Assembly (NCBI GenBank): GCA_002011615.1
Contig: MTOH01000011.1
Span: forward strand, 1-64,000
DNA from: Candidatus Hydrothermus pacificus
Lineage (GTDB): Bacteria > Hydrothermota > Hydrothermia > Hydrothermales > Hydrothermaceae
Direction of reading: 5' to 3'
Length of the DNA stretch: 64,000 nucleotides
Shown here: positions 7,683 through 54,022 of the stretch, in pieces
Layout: each line of letters opens with the position of its first letter
Numbering within the stretch: position 1 is the first letter of the stretch
Notes under the pieces: generated by a model
What the model was told of the DNA's origin: nothing
The model's input: only the letters and a program-made list of their open reading frames with translations
Databases searched by the model: none
Translations under genes and position numbers: made by a program

Positions 7683-9915
7683 ATTTGTTCCTATAAGTCA
7701 AATATCTTTCCTTTACAATTTCCTTCTGTTCATCATTAAAATCATTCAGAATGATAGAGGAAAATTTGCTCAGATAAAGCAAATTTATTATTTTCTTTTT
7801 TTCCTCCAGTTCATCAAGTTTTTTTAAAATGGATTCCCTATCAGTTCCTATAAGATGGGAATAGAGGGCACTGTAATAAGCCAGAAAAATTCTATCTTCC
7901 TCACCTATATCCCTTGATATAAGTAACCTTATATAATAATTTATATCGCCCAGATTGGAATTTAACAGATTAAATTCTATTTTGTGCACAAACAGAGCAT
8001 TCTCCCATGAATAAACATAGTTTTCTCTTAAGAAATTGTCAAACTTATCAAGTATCTTTTTTGCTGTTTCCACATTCTTTTTATAAATTCCTTCTATTGA
8101 AAACCTGAGAGAAAAATAATAAAACCACCCATCAAGAAACTCATATCTCTGACTCATATTCAGGTACTTTTCAAGATATCTTTCAGTGGTTTCTATATCT
8201 TCTTTATATACAAGATTTAAAAGACAGGCATTCATATATGCTGACCTGAGAGATGGCCCCTTTGTTTTCATTAATTCTTCAATTATATTCTCACACTTTG
8301 ATATTTCTCCTGTGTTTAAATATAGAGTCGCAAGATTATTTTTTAGTATATTACTTACCTCCAAATTTCCAATTTCATCAAAAAGTTTTATGGCTCTTTT
8401 ATAATCTTCCCCTGCCTCTTTAAATCTGAGATATCTTCTATGCACTATTCCTCTAAGGTTGTAAAGAGAGGCCTTGAGCCTGTTATACCATTTCTTCTCA
8501 TGTTCTTTTTTTAAATATTCTACGGGGAACTTTTCAATTAATTCTATAGCTGTTCTAACAATATCTTCTGAATCTTTTTCGGTTTTTACATTCATATTTA
8601 CAAGGGCATAGTAATAGTACCACGTAAGTTTCTCTCTTCCCAGAAGCTTATCAGATATATCTTTTAAAATTTTGTAACATTCTTCATATTTCCTTTTTTT
8701 ATACAAATATATGGCATAACAGAGAGAAAGAGTGGGAATTTCATTGATTTTGTTCTTACCGATTTCCTCAAAAAGCCTTTCGACAAATGGGTACCTGCCT
8801 TTATCCATCAGGTCAAAAATTGAATAAAACAGGTATTTAGAAGCATCTTCATATTTAAGGGCCTTTACAGAGTGATAAGCTGCACTGGCAAAATCTTCTT
8901 TTTCTGAAAAATATTCAGCACCTTTTGAATGAATTAAAAAGTATATAATCTCCCCTCCTTTTAAACTGAATATATAATCATCAATCGCCTCTTTAAAGGT
9001 AGGGTTAAGAGAATAAAAAATTCTGTTGTTTTCTTCTCTCTTCTCAATGTAAAGTCCTTTCCTTTCCCATCTCCTGAGAATATCGTTAAGATTTTTGATT
9101 CCAAAAAGGTCATAAACTAATCTATCATCAAACTTAACAAATTGAGAAATTGCATACAGAAGTCTTTTGTCTTTTTCTTCAAGTGTCTCAATAACATGAG
9201 AAAGTAAATCTTTAAATATCTCTTTTTTTCTGATAAAGTCTTCTAAATTCAGCCCTTCTTTTATCTTGTTTAATATCAGAATTATGGGTAATATCCACCC
9301 ATCAGTAGCCTTAATTATTCTCCACATCTCATTGGGATTTAGTGTTACTTTATGAAACTCACAGAGCCTTTCAAGTTCTTTCTCTCCAATTTTTAAATAA
9401 TCGTAACCGTACTTTTTAAAATGAGAAGGTATATATTCAGGATTTTCTTCATATCCCACAAGGATGACTCTTTTCTTCGGCATAACCTCAAACAACGGGA
9501 TTAGATAATTACTTATAATCTCACCAGTATTTTCTTCGAGCTGGTTGATTTTAAAAAATATATAGGTATAATCAGATAAATCCAGTTTTTTAAAAGCATT
9601 ATTCAAGCCTTTGAAAAGGGGTTTTAAAGAAAAATTTTTCACCTCTTCATAATATTCTCTGAACCTATCTGATTTATTTGAAATCACCTCTCCAAAAGTT
9701 TTTAAAAGATGGTATGGGTCTTTATCATCGGGCTCCATCTCCATAAAAATAAAGTTTCCTTCTTCTACTTCTTCAAGTTTTAGCAGGAGAGTGGTTTTAC
9801 CCGACCCGGGAGGTGCTCCTATATAGATATACTGGTTCTCCTGCTGTTGAATTTCTCTTAATAGATTATCAAAACAAAAACAGATTTCTCTTTTTTCCTG
9901 GCGACTCTCTTTCAT
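7666..9915 (-). CDS. STAND/MalT-like ATPase with TPR solenoid, no visible effector domain
   Basis: Residues of about 32-45 contain a Walker A loop (GAPPGSGKTTLL), followed by a Walker B-like hydrophobic strand (YIFFKI) and RVILVGYEE as in sensor strands. A helical winged-helix-like region follows, and the C-terminal 400 residues are TPR-like helical hairpins (DYKRAIKLFDEIG, LATLYLNTGEISKCE). This is the layout of STAND ATPases such as MalT, but no LuxR-type helix-turn-helix, TIR or nuclease domain can be seen, so the output is unknown. It heads a four-gene operon. The start ATG lies 10 nt after a -10 element, so the mRNA would be almost leaderless. The start region is partly duplicated upstream. 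Confidence 0.6.
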   Translation of the reverse strand: MKESRQEKREICFCFDNLLREIQQQENQYIYIGAPPGSGKTTLLLKLEEVEEGNFIFMEMEPDDKDPYHLLKTFGEVISNKSDRFREYYEEVKNFSLKPLFKGLNNAFKKLDLSDYTYIFFKINQLEENTGEIISNYLIPLFEVMPKKRVILVGYEENPEYIPSHFKKYGYDYLKIGEKELERLCEFHKVTLNPNEMWRIIKATDGWILPIILILNKIKEGLNLEDFIRKKEIFKDLLSHVIETLEEKDKRLLYAISQFVKFDDRLVYDLFGIKNLNDILRRWERKGLYIEKREENNRIFYSLNPTFKEAIDDYIFSLKGGEIIYFLIHSKGAEYFSEKEDFASAAYHSVKALKYEDASKYLFYSIFDLMDKGRYPFVERLFEEIGKNKINEIPTLSLCYAIYLYKKRKYEECYKILKDISDKLLGREKLTWYYYYALVNMNVKTEKDSEDIVRTAIELIEKFPVEYLKKEHEKKWYNRLKASLYNLRGIVHRRYLRFKEAGEDYKRAIKLFDEIGNLEVSNILKNNLATLYLNTGEISKCENIIEELMKTKGPSLRSAYMNACLLNLVYKEDIETTERYLEKYLNMSQRYEFLDGWFYYFSLRFSIEGIYKKNVETAKKILDKFDNFLRENYVYSWENALFVHKIEFNLLNSNLGDINYYIRLLISRDIGEEDRIFLAYYSALYSHLIGTDRESILKKLDELEEKKKIINLLYLSKFSSIILNDFNDEQKEIVKERYLTYRNKYVLKK

Positions 9916-9925
9916 AGAATTTTAA

Positions 9926-9955
9926 ATTTTAAAGAAACACAGGTGGATTTTGCAA
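9926..9955 (-). promoter_or_regulatory. Promoter of the TPR ATPase operon
   Basis: On the minus strand, TTGCAA (9955-9950) and TAAAAT (9931-9926) are separated by 18 bp. The ATG follows 10 nt after the -10 element with no Shine-Dalgarno sequence, which implies a leaderless or nearly leaderless transcript. A second copy (TTGTAA-N18-TAAAAT) lies 86 bp upstream in the tandem repeat. Confidence 0.5.
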
Positions 9956-10028
9956 AAAAATGTCATTATAATTAATCTCTTCTCAGGCTACTTTCTTTTA
10001 TAGAATTTTACATTTTAAAGAAACATAA

Positions 10029-10058
10029 TTGAATTTTACAAAAAAATGTTATTATAAT
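10029..10058 (+). promoter_or_regulatory. Promoter of the M16 peptidase pair
   Basis: TTGAAT (10029-10034) and a perfect TATAAT (10053-10058) are separated by 18 bp. The ATG of the peptidase is 16 nt downstream in an A-rich stretch without a Shine-Dalgarno match. The equivalent place in repeat copy 1 keeps TATAAT but has lost the -35 match. Confidence 0.5.
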
Positions 10059-10074
10059 TAATCTCTTAAAAAAA

Positions 10075-50838: not shown

Positions 50839-51228
50839 ATGAAATTGCCTTATGGTAAAATAGAGGGTAATGTTTTAAAGATGTCCTTCTCAACCGCAGA
50901 CTACTCAATTGCAACCGTTCTTTCCGCATTAAAGGAACACATTGATGTGATAAAGGAAATGGGAGTTAAATTTCTGGGCGCCCAGACAGAAGTTTCTGCT
51001 CAGCCCGGAGTTTTTCAACCTGTCCCGATTGTTATTATATTTGAATATGAAGGAAAAGAAAAAGCAGAAAATATTTTAAAAAAGGTCTATGAACTCGTAT
51101 GGGAAGGTATGGTTTCAACATTTCCTGATGAATCGGTATGGAGTGAGGCAAAGGCAAACTTTGCGGAATTTATATTTGCACAGGCAGACCTTTTGAGAGC
51201 AAGAGTTGAATCAATGAAAACTGAATGA
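50839..51228 (+). CDS. Unknown 129-residue protein, first gene of the radical SAM operon
   Basis: I do not recognise this family. The protein has no signal peptide and no cysteine. It mixes alpha and beta segments (MKLPYGKIEGNVLKMSFSTA, VPIVIIFEYEGKEKAENIL), ending in a long helix rich in Ala and Glu. An AGGAGG ribosome site precedes the ATG and a TATAAT lies 24 nt further upstream at 50809-50814. It overlaps by ATGA the gene for the Cys/His-tailed membrane protein, so it is likely made together with that product. It could be a soluble accessory factor. Confidence 0.6.
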   Translation: MKLPYGKIEGNVLKMSFSTADYSIATVLSALKEHIDVIKEMGVKFLGAQTEVSAQPGVFQPVPIVIIFEYEGKEKAENILKKVYELVWEGMVSTFPDESVWSEAKANFAEFIFAQADLLRARVESMKTE

Positions 51229-52751
51229 GAAAAATTTTATTTTTCATCTTAATTCCTTTAACGCTTTTTTCCTTAAATGTAAGTCTTAAATGGTGTGAAG
51301 TTGATGTTTCTCTTTTAAAAAATGGAAAGGCAATTCTTGTTTATAAAGTAAATTTTGAAGTGAAAAGAGGAAGTCTTCACGGGTTCTATTTTCAGGACCC
51401 TGATATAGAATACAGAATTGTTAAGGATAGTTCTTTTGCAATTTACGAAGGGAATAAAATTCCTCTTGATATAAAATATCTGGGAAATGGCAAATTTGAT
51501 GTTGTTCTTGAAAAAGGAAAAGCAATATCAAGGGGTGAAATTATATATGTGCTTTTAATGACAGCAGACTTTTTAAAGGAAGGTTTGCTCGGTATTACAA
51601 AAAGTGAATTCGGAAATTTAATTTACTTTGATTGGGAACCTGTTTTATGGGGATATCCGATGGAACACGAGGCAATTTATATTCATTTTCCAATTGAAAC
51701 GCAAAAGGATACATTGACTTTTGAAGAATTTACTTCATACGGAATAAGAACCGAAAAATTTATGAACCAGAATTACAGGATGTTTTATTATGGTCAGCAA
51801 TACAGGGGTAAAAAATATCTTTCAATGGGGATATACAAAAGGTTTTTAAAAATACAAGAGGGTATGCCTGTAAAGCTTTATATTCCTGAAAAGTATTTTG
51901 TTTTGGGCAAGGCTTTAAAGGAAATTGAAAAGAAGAAAAAAACAGAAAAAGTTTTGAAATTAGCTCCTTATCTTGTAATTTTCCTGATAATAGCAGGAGT
52001 TTTTATCACCTATATTTCAATTAAATCAGAAAATATAAAAAAAGCCAAAAGAGAAATAGAAATCATGGATTTATTTAAAGAGGAATGGGTTCCACCACGA
52101 ATAAATGTAATGACATATAGAAAAACAGGGAAAATTGCTGAACTTGATTTCGTTGAAGCTCTGTATATTACAGAAACTTCTTTAAATGAAATATTATCTT
52201 TTATTGCTAAAAGTCTGGTTCATAAAGGTTTTATTTACATCATATCACTATCACCACCCAGATTTAAACTTATTGAAGGCAAAAATCTTCAGAATCTTAA
52301 ATATTATGAAAGGCTTTTCATATCAGCGATTGAGCCTGACGGTTCTTTAAATCCTGAAAAAGTTAAGAATTTATTTATTAAGATGACTGACGAAATTTAC
52401 AGAAAATCATGGGATTGTGACATTGAGGCAACAAAGAAGTATTATAGTGAAAAAATCAAAAAGGGAGCCAAATCTTTTGAAAAAGAAAGAGCAACTCCAT
52501 ATTACTATTGGTATTTATGGAGACGAGATGAAGAATACATAGCAATGAAAAAGAGTTTTAGTGAATTCAATGAAAGGTTTGAAAACTTCTCCTCTTTTAT
52601 AAAATCCGATGCATGTCATTCTGCATGTTATGTCCATACTGCATGCCATGACGCCTGTCATTCTGCCTGCCATTCTGCGTGCCATTCTGCCTGTCATTCT
52701 GCCTGCCATTCTGCGTGTCATTCTGCATGTGTATCAGGAGGTGCTCATTGA
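51225..52751 (+). CDS. Membrane protein with a Cys/His repeat tail, putative radical SAM substrate
   Basis: The 508-residue protein has a signal peptide (MRKILFFILIPLTLFSL), a beta-rich extracytoplasmic part of about 225 residues, one transmembrane helix at about 247-266 (APYLVIFLIIAGVFITYIS) and a cytoplasmic part of about 240 residues. The last 45 residues hold ten cysteines at 464, 468, 474, 478, 482, 486, 490, 494, 498 and 502, six of them in perfect HSAC units, then VSGGAH. The order resembles DUF2207-type membrane proteins that also end in low-complexity tails. The next gene encodes a radical SAM/SPASM protein whose ribosome site lies in the last codons. The tail is thus likely its substrate or a metal-binding element. 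Confidence 0.72.
   Translation: MRKILFFILIPLTLFSLNVSLKWCEVDVSLLKNGKAILVYKVNFEVKRGSLHGFYFQDPDIEYRIVKDSSFAIYEGNKIPLDIKYLGNGKFDVVLEKGKAISRGEIIYVLLMTADFLKEGLLGITKSEFGNLIYFDWEPVLWGYPMEHEAIYIHFPIETQKDTLTFEEFTSYGIRTEKFMNQNYRMFYYGQQYRGKKYLSMGIYKRFLKIQEGMPVKLYIPEKYFVLGKALKEIEKKKKTEKVLKLAPYLVIFLIIAGVFITYISIKSENIKKAKREIEIMDLFKEEWVPPRINVMTYRKTGKIAELDFVEALYITETSLNEILSFIAKSLVHKGFIYIISLSPPRFKLIEGKNLQNLKYYERLFISAIEPDGSLNPEKVKNLFIKMTDEIYRKSWDCDIEATKKYYSEKIKKGAKSFEKERATPYYYWYLWRRDEEYIAMKKSFSEFNERFENFSSFIKSDACHSACYVHTACHDACHSACHSACHSACHSACHSACHSACVSGGAH
52659..52730 (+). repeat. Six 12-bp tandem repeats coding HSAC
   Basis: The unit CATTCTGCNTGY is repeated six times without gap. The third bases of Ala (C, G or A) and Cys (C or T) vary while CATTCT stays constant, so the amino acid pattern is kept while DNA has diverged slightly. 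Four further cysteines stand upstream at less regular spacing. Confidence 0.9.
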
Positions 52752-54022
52752 GAAATCTTTTATGGATTGATGAATTTATCAGGTCAATTAAAAGATATAT
52801 GTTCTTAAGGGAAGAAGATAATGTTATGATAATTATTCCAAATCAGGTTTACTCTTTGAATAAAACAGGATTTAAGATATTAAAATTTTTGCTTTCAGGT
52901 GGTAAAATAAATGAGATTGAGAAATTTGTTGACGATAAAAAGAAAAAGGAGTTATTTTATTTTTTCTGTGATCTGAGAGCAATTTTAACAGGTTGTTTAA
53001 AAGAAAACGAAAAAAGAGAGACAATAAACTATCTTGAATACAATGAAGATTTTTTCAGATACCCTGTTATATCAGAGTTTGCAGTGAATTATAGATGTAA
53101 TCTAAATTGTAAATTCTGTTATGCAGGTTCTCAAAACAAAGACAAAGAGTTAAATACAAAGGATATAGAAAAGATTCTTGAAAAGATAAGGTATCAGGCA
53201 AAGGTTCCTTTTGTGAGTTTTACAGGGGGAGAACCCCTTTTAAGAAAAGATATATTTGAATTAATTTCTTTTGCACAAAAAATCGATTTGAAGACAAATT
53301 TAATAACAAATGGAACTTTAATAAATGAAAAAATTGCCCGAAAATTAAGGAACTCGGGATTAGAATCAGCCCAGGTAAGTCTTGAAGGTCCTGAGAGCAT
53401 TCACGATACCCTTACAGGAGTAAAAGGCTCTTTTCAGAAAACAATTACGGGAATAAAAAATTTAAAAAGAGAGGGAATAAGGGTTCACACAAATACAACT
53501 CTAAATAAGGTAAATATACCCCATGTCTTTGAACTGATTGATATAATAAAATCAATCGGGCTTGATAAGTTTTCAATGAATCTTGTAATACCCTGTGGAA
53601 GTGCTGATAAAAACAAAGATATATGGGTAAAATACTCTGAAATAGGCAAAGTAATTAAAAAAGTAAAAAATTACTCAAATAATAAAGGACTGAAATTTAT
53701 ATGGTATTCTCCTCTACCCTTCTGTATTTTTAATCCTGTTAAACAAGGTCTTGGAGGTAAAGGATGTGCAGCACTCAAAGGACTCTTAAGCGTGGACCCC
53801 GAAGGCAATATCATTCCCTGTTCAAGTTTTTATGAACCTGTTGGAAATTTGCTCGAACAAGACTTTGAAAGTATCTGGTTCTCAAGTAAAGCTGAGTTTT
53901 ACAGAAAAAGGAAATTTGCAGGCAGTGAATGCAAAAAATGCGAACTTTTTGAAAAATGCACCGGGGCATGCATTTTATATTTCAGAAAAATGGGTTATGA
54001 AGAAATCAAAAAAAGAATTTAA
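52748..54022 (+). CDS. Radical SAM/SPASM protein with N-terminal PqqD-like domain
   Basis: I set the start at TTG (52748), which overlaps the preceding stop as TTGA and stands 6 nt after AGGAGG; the longer frame is only the repeat read in another frame. Residues of about 18-90 (VMIIIPNQVYSLNKTGFKIL) resemble PqqD-type recognition domains that bind leader peptides. The radical SAM motif is Cys117-X3-Cys121-X2-Cys124, with GGEP at 160-163. The SPASM set is Cys340, Cys358, Cys395, Cys398, Cys404 and Cys408. Such enzymes modify ribosomal peptides, often forming thioether or carbon-carbon links. The adjacent Cys-rich tail is the obvious candidate target. Confidence 0.87.
   Translation: MRNLLWIDEFIRSIKRYMFLREEDNVMIIIPNQVYSLNKTGFKILKFLLSGGKINEIEKFVDDKKKKELFYFFCDLRAILTGCLKENEKRETINYLEYNEDFFRYPVISEFAVNYRCNLNCKFCYAGSQNKDKELNTKDIEKILEKIRYQAKVPFVSFTGGEPLLRKDIFELISFAQKIDLKTNLITNGTLINEKIARKLRNSGLESAQVSLEGPESIHDTLTGVKGSFQKTITGIKNLKREGIRVHTNTTLNKVNIPHVFELIDIIKSIGLDKFSMNLVIPCGSADKNKDIWVKYSEIGKVIKKVKNYSNNKGLKFIWYSPLPFCIFNPVKQGLGGKGCAALKGLLSVDPEGNIIPCSSFYEPVGNLLEQDFESIWFSSKAEFYRKRKFAGSECKKCELFEKCTGACILYFRKMGYEEIKKRI

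Follow-up and report, generated by a model that had tools for sequence, protein, structure and literature searches.

A membrane protein with a Cys-His repeat tail (P0001) and a radical SAM/SPASM enzyme (P0002) are encoded side by side in a window of 64,000 nucleotides from Candidatus Hydrothermus pacificus (contig MTOH01000011.1), and tail and enzyme co-occur, in both directions, in every genome examined where the contig permits judgement. A sequence-only reading of this DNA had put forward such co-occurrence as a check on its proposal that the tail undergoes a RiPP-style modification, and the check was passed. We infer, with a probability of about 0.8, that P0002 modifies the P0001 tail; no modified tail has been observed, and the modification itself is an inference. 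The co-occurrence, the RRE of the enzyme and its RiPP-maturase fold support the proposal, while the chemistry that came with it (thioethers, -2 Da per link) remains inferred, as does the role of a surface element, cross-linked or metal-binding. Neither linkage nor co-inheritance is proof of the tail being the substrate.

Gene Organization and Layout of the Tail Protein

The enzyme gene directly follows the tail gene, as had been noticed at first sight, and overlaps its stop by 4 bp; it starts at the TTG at 52748 and not at the GTG at 52679 of the mechanical ORF list (table 1). Elsewhere in the window, an 86-bp unit occurs as a tandem pair (9900-10067; 87% matches), largely between two divergent ORFs.

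Table 1. Features of the tail-enzyme module and their positions in the window
Feature	Position	Strand	Basis
129-aa protein, no known family, overlaps P0001 gene by 4 bp	50839..51228	+	homologues in 21 loci
P0001 tail protein, 508 aa, DUF2207-type membrane protein, proposed substrate	51225..52751	+	PF09972 in 16/40 homologues; AF2 model
P0001 signal peptide / N-terminal hydrophobic helix, aa 1-17	51225..51275	+	sequence; AF2 helix 2-15; hydrophobic segment
P0001 extracytoplasmic beta domain, aa 18-221	51276..51887	+	AF2 pLDDT mostly >93
P0001 single internal transmembrane span, about aa 243-262	51951..52010	+	hydropathy 2.52; AF2 long helix 230-282
P0001 winged-helix-like domain, aa 305-416, probably cytoplasmic	52137..52472	+	AF2; family-member profile matches
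P0001 Cys-His repeat tail, aa 461-508, proposed modification site	52605..52748	+	sequence; conservation; AF2
Shine-Dalgarno-like AGGAGGTG for P0002, within last P0001 codons, 4 nt before TTG	52736..52743	+	sequence
P0002 radical SAM/SPASM enzyme, 424 aa, TTG start	52748..54022	+	sequence; Pfam; AF2; fold search
P0002 RRE (PqqD-like) domain, aa 18-80	52799..52987	+	AF2 bbb-aaa; orthologue PqqD matches; SuiB full-length alignment
P0002 radical SAM CX3CX2C motif, C117, C121, C124	53096..53119	+	invariant in 58 orthologues
P0002 SPASM region, seven invariant auxiliary-cluster Cys: C326, C340, C358, C395, C398, C404, C408	53723..53971	+	Pfam; 58 orthologues
309-aa membrane protein, third core-module member, overlaps P0002 gene	53997..54926	+	homologues in 57 loci

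The C-terminus of P0001 is ...FIKSDACHSACYVHTACHDACHSACHSACHSACHSACHSACHSACVSGGAH. Its ten Cys (464, 468, 474, 478, 482, 486, 490, 494, 498, and 502) follow a CX3C spacing throughout with a single CX5C exception, and six HSAC units stand in tandem as (HSAC)6, exactly the regular array that the sequence-only reading had described. The tail is predicted to be unstructured, the AF2 model giving pLDDT <50 at residues 467-491 and 493-505. The single span and cytoplasmic tail claimed earlier are supported but not proven, and the location of the tail is inferred from a mixed positive-inside signal: the rule favoured a cytoplasmic tail in 38 of 56 relatives and disfavoured it in 14, and P0001 itself carries 7 K/R before the span and 5 after it. 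Its probable cytoplasmic location spoke against reading the tail as a heme c tail (CX3CH), and that reading was dropped.

Tail proteins range from 500 to 930 aa across the family. PF09972 (DUF2207) was matched by 16 of 40 family members (best 5.2e-5), which bears out the suspected DUF2207 resemblance, and the tail protein of one genome (G110) scored above the cut-off. P0001 has no PF09972 match of its own, and its membership rests only on homology to matching relatives. Counterparts of the winged-helix-like domain in other family members matched DUF2207_C or TIGR04222. In the fold search, P0001 gave only low TM-score matches confined to the beta domain (M1 aminopeptidase N-domain and ribophorin I-like in Foldseek, about 0.27 over the whole chain).

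Taxonomic Distribution and Pairing of Tail and Enzyme

A DNA pattern scan for (HSAC)3, taking one genome per species and biased to the most regular tails, returned at least 80 loci. Among the matches listed, 77 of 80 loci were genuine tails, C-terminal wherever the protein end was available; the other three (L085, L091, and L124) were rejected, the reasons being HRAC repeats, a stop codon in frame, and an unrelated short frame. These listed tails came from at least roughly 20 bacterial and archaeal phyla, with record labels including Thorarchaeota, Heimdallarchaeota, Thermoproteota, Chloroflexota, Myxococcota, Acidobacteria, Planctomycetota, Spirochaetota, Aminicenantes, Elusimicrobia, Omnitrophota, Sumerlaeota, Clostridia, Desulfobacterales, and others. 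The confinement to WOR-3 and related genomes that was implied at first underestimated this spread, and the family is pan-prokaryotic. When 150 related genomes were searched by homology, P0001 proved to have homologues in 22 others of the phylum, mostly with 33-38% body identity. The tail was shared by all homologues whose contig reaches the C-terminus; in G140 the contig stops inside it.

The pairing was computed directly from these loci. An enzyme orthologue was present on the examined DNA in 89 of 98 listed tail loci (in 86 of them downstream and on the strand of the tail gene, in 3 upstream), usually overlapping the tail gene or at most 440 nt downstream. No enzyme was seen at L083, L099, and L135, where the contig or the examined DNA ends; L077 has a Thorarchaeal arrangement beyond reach of the examined DNA, and at L131 the gene order is tail, membrane protein, enzyme. 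Gaps of 100 N directly follow the tail at L038, L045, and L114, the last apparently from the same genome as L045, and L061 is a second tail copy without enzyme in a genome that also has the full set. Whole-genome searches recovered one strong enzyme orthologue (480-633 bits) in 12 of 13 genomes, with no second hit above 154 bits; in the thirteenth (L069) only part of the enzyme is present, at a contig end.

The same held in the 150 related genomes, where the set with the enzyme at E<=1e-60 equalled the set with the tail protein except at contig breaks. In G128, which appeared to have an extra enzyme, the contig ends inside the HSAC tail, and in G139 the enzyme is cut at the contig start. In G110 and G106 the scaffold places the enzyme away from the tail gene, and N gaps close to each of the two sites suggest mis-scaffolding. 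It is often at the HSAC array, or right behind it, that assemblies break (L038, L045, L205 (G128 C54), and L209 (G140 C102)), so tail gene and enzyme may appear unlinked in draft genomes.

Distances between tail-protein bodies correlated with those between enzymes (Spearman 0.765; 0 of 2000 permutations as high), which fits co-inheritance, although shared ancestry alone would also give it. The window enzyme groups with Aminicenantes and the pair is absent from the other same-class genomes examined, suggesting horizontal transfer or loss.

Domain Composition of the Enzyme

The domain make-up of P0002 was likewise computed. Radical_SAM (PF04055, 2.9e-29) and SPASM (PF13186, 2e-8) both exceeded their Pfam cut-offs. 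The AF2 model (pLDDT 93.6, pTM 0.92) places three strands and then three helices at residues 18-80, which is the RRE topology; Pfam PqqD was matched by 33 of 58 orthologues (best 6.6e-11), though not by P0002 itself, and the PqqD-like N-terminal segment recognized earlier was in this way upheld. The top PDB fold matches, nearly full length, were SuiB (E 2e-18, with and without peptide) and SkfB (1.8e-17). P0002 scored far under the cut-off for every NCBIfam maturase model listed, so it is not shown to belong to any named subfamily. The best NCBIfam scores, those of AhbD and NirJ/NirJ2, would indicate a heme-pathway enzyme, an identity that was rejected because the scores are far below cut-off, an RRE is present, and the fold is nearer to RiPP maturases.

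Ordinary DUF2207 Proteins and a Second Tail Class

Ordinary DUF2207 proteins served as controls. PF09972 hits occurred in 51 of the 150 genomes; what was hit in G110 is the tail protein. Each of the 23 complete ordinary DUF2207 proteins examined in the phylum has a Gly-rich end (mostly ...GGGGGW) without Cys in its final 60 residues, and about 1.5 kb of flank of the 23 genes showed no radical SAM motif. The enzyme was present in only 2 of the 51 genomes with DUF2207 hits, both of which have an HSAC tail protein. The dependence of the pairing on the tail is thus a computed result: because tail-less DUF2207 proteins lack the enzyme, the enzyme accompanies the tail and not the DUF2207 body. The Gly-rich, usually Trp-ended C-terminus of these ordinary proteins (L210-L239) is itself strongly conserved and unexplained.

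A second tail class, CACACACAGCACACAGGGR, was found in six genomes, in DUF2207-like proteins of about 550 aa ending in SGGGCACACACAGCACACAGGGR or close to it. Their enzymes form a separate radical SAM/SPASM clade (support 100/100), adjoin the tail gene where the contig allows, and mark exactly those six genomes (L053, L054, L055, L056, L057, and L052, the last being G060, cut at a contig end). On the enzyme tree, tail class required 8 changes versus 41 when shuffled. A small membrane zinc-ribbon protein lies upstream in most CACACACAGCACACAGGGR loci.

Possible Chemistry of the Proposed Modification

We propose that P0001 would be exported via its signal peptide and anchored by the single span, so that the C-terminal domain and the Cys-His tail stay on the cytoplasmic side. 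The RRE of P0002 may dock onto this cytoplasmic part, and the radical SAM/SPASM core could then carry out repeated radical modification of the HxAC units. The most likely product would be cross-links within the protein, joining Cys sulfur to a nearby residue in the manner of sactipeptides and ranthipeptides. By analogy, such Cys-donor cross-links are favoured over other radical chemistry at perhaps even odds, and thioether chemistry on the tail, inferred on the same ground, is given slightly less than an even chance; SPASM enzymes catalyse several kinds of chemistry, which makes thioether formation a guess. The modified tail may remain part of the membrane protein and serve in the cytoplasm as an element that is rigid, metal-binding or redox-active. 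No peptidase family was seen among the recurrent module neighbours; with neither a leader peptidase nor an exporter recognisable in the module, the product would remain attached and unreleased.

Across 770 CX3C units, position 1 was His (96%), position 2 Ser (85%) or Asp (10%), and position 3 Ala (97%). Position 2, being the least conserved, is the least likely acceptor, and His, Ala, and Cys are the candidate positions. It remains a real, if minority, possibility that the tail is modified without thioethers, through a different radical change such as epimerisation, C-C linkage or desaturation, leaving Cys free for metal or disulfide chemistry. SuiB, the best fold match, forms a Lys-Trp C-C bond, and the near-equal conservation of His and Ala with Cys would also suit such chemistry. 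However, ten regular Cys beside a SPASM enzyme look most like Cys-donor cross-linking, for example by PapB, which makes multiple thioether cross-links on a repeated CX3D motif (PMC9413430); this argument is analogy only.

Module Partners and Other Potential Targets

Homologues of the 129-aa protein lie just 5' of the tail gene, mostly in WOR-3 relatives and Thorarchaeota. The 309-aa membrane protein, for which a family search gave nothing exceeding the cut-off, has homologues nearly always at position +2. In a Chloroflexota/Myxococcota branch a coiled-coil protein replaces it. This protein, of about 400 aa with a conserved C-terminus, stands beside the pair at L060, L068, L093, L102, L103, L111, L116, L118, L121, and L125, and a membrane zinc-ribbon protein is present in half of these ten loci. 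These partners (membrane protein, or coiled-coil and zinc-ribbon proteins) point to the cell envelope.

That the +2 membrane protein is so frequent a module member (57 loci) leaves some room for a different arrangement, in which the enzyme targets that protein, a cofactor or another nearby thing and the Cys-His tail merely binds metal or a cluster, its dense Cys and His being suited to metal binding; the heme enzymes AhbD and NirJ2 among the best, far sub-cut-off, scores of P0002 lean the same way. We nevertheless consider this unlikely: where the +2 gene is swapped for the coiled-coil gene, tail and enzyme are retained, the enzyme carries a peptide-binding domain (the RRE) and has the fold nearest to RiPP maturases, and tail class tracks enzyme clade.

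Selection on the Tail and Its Significance

The tail is kept letter for letter across genera and nearly so across phyla. An identical 46-residue tail was found in at least 25 loci (22 distinct DNAs), one of them from Sumerlaeota. Among these, third codon positions differed at a mean of 25.5 of 46 (range 14-35), and the few differences at first or second positions were also synonymous, the protein being identical. Identical tails despite so many changed third positions indicate strong selection on the tail, a result computed from the codons themselves. Tandem Repeats Finder calls a 12-bp array inside the tail (52634-52730), but that the tail is functionless low-complexity DNA, expanded by slippage beside an unrelated enzyme gene, can be given almost no credence, as it is contradicted by this synonymous pattern, by the constancy across genera of repeat number and non-repeat letters (YVHT, HDAC, VSGGA), and by the C-terminal recurrence of the tail in many phyla.

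Conservation this extreme suggests a role basic to the cell and a product of defined chemistry, the role itself being inferred. We regard as evenly balanced the broader hypothesis of a hyperconserved modification in bacteria and archaea, including Asgard, that yields an unreleased, multiply modified RiPP-like Cys-His element acting as a cytoplasmic protein cofactor or sensor. RRE-bearing radical SAM/SPASM enzymes are mainly known as makers of small peptides, and P0002 instead appears to serve solely the tail of a large membrane protein. The DUF2207 family is widespread and its function is unknown; our results offer a handle on it, suggesting that the tail type (Gly-rich, HSAC or CACACA) decides which enzyme, if any, acts. 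As a protein modification the system looks widespread and undescribed.

Comparison with Known Systems

No Pfam or NCBIfam model names the tail-enzyme system, and it was not found described in the literature on DUF2207, HSAC/CHSAC, CXXX repeats or radical SAM targets, most subscription papers being outside the search; no experimental data on it were found there. A DUF2207-ovothiol gene neighbourhood was rejected as an explanation, its authors having found no conserved link.

The NCBIfam entry TIGR04117 (Cys-Xaa-Xaa-Xaa repeat radical SAM target protein) shares CX3 Cys repeats with the HSAC tails. It was matched weakly by 9 of 40 tail proteins (best 5.3e-5) and not by P0001; its cut-off of 50 bits was unmet, as in the repeat-only matches of L092 (13.6 bits) and L061 (9.6 bits). 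The model describes a small target of 98 positions, whereas the HSAC repeat is the tail of a membrane protein of 500-930 aa. SuiB and SkfB have the RRE, radical SAM and SPASM architecture in common with P0002, at about 20% identity, and act on short peptides with leaders. RRE-dependent SPASM maturases normally work on a short precursor with a cleaved leader, in contrast to the large membrane protein that is the candidate substrate here. PapB and the ranthipeptide maturases resemble the system in the repeated Cys motif of their substrates, but P0002 reaches 95.5 bits against a PapB model cut-off of 340, and Asp/Glu, the acceptors used by PapB, are a minority in the HSAC tail.

The TIGR04222 membrane proteins with Cys-rich C-termini are proposed substrates of an iron-dependent MNIO; their tails are Ser/Gly-rich with scattered Cys, predicted to be periplasmic, and mostly from Actinomycetota (PMC12452194). 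The likeness lies in a membrane protein with a Cys-containing low-complexity C-terminus and a modifying enzyme alongside; the enzyme there is an MNIO, whereas the recurrent partner of HSAC tails is a radical SAM enzyme (no systematic MNIO search was made). TIGR04222 was matched weakly by 9 of 40 tail proteins (best 4.7e-8, 32.9 bits versus a cut-off of 43) and not by P0001. Finally, DUF2207 proteins (PF09972/PF20990) share their N-terminal extracytoplasmic and C-terminal domains with part of the tail family, and the ordinary DUF2207 proteins of the phylum, with Gly-rich tails free of Cys and without radical SAM neighbours on the flanks searched, differ from the HSAC tail proteins in precisely these features.
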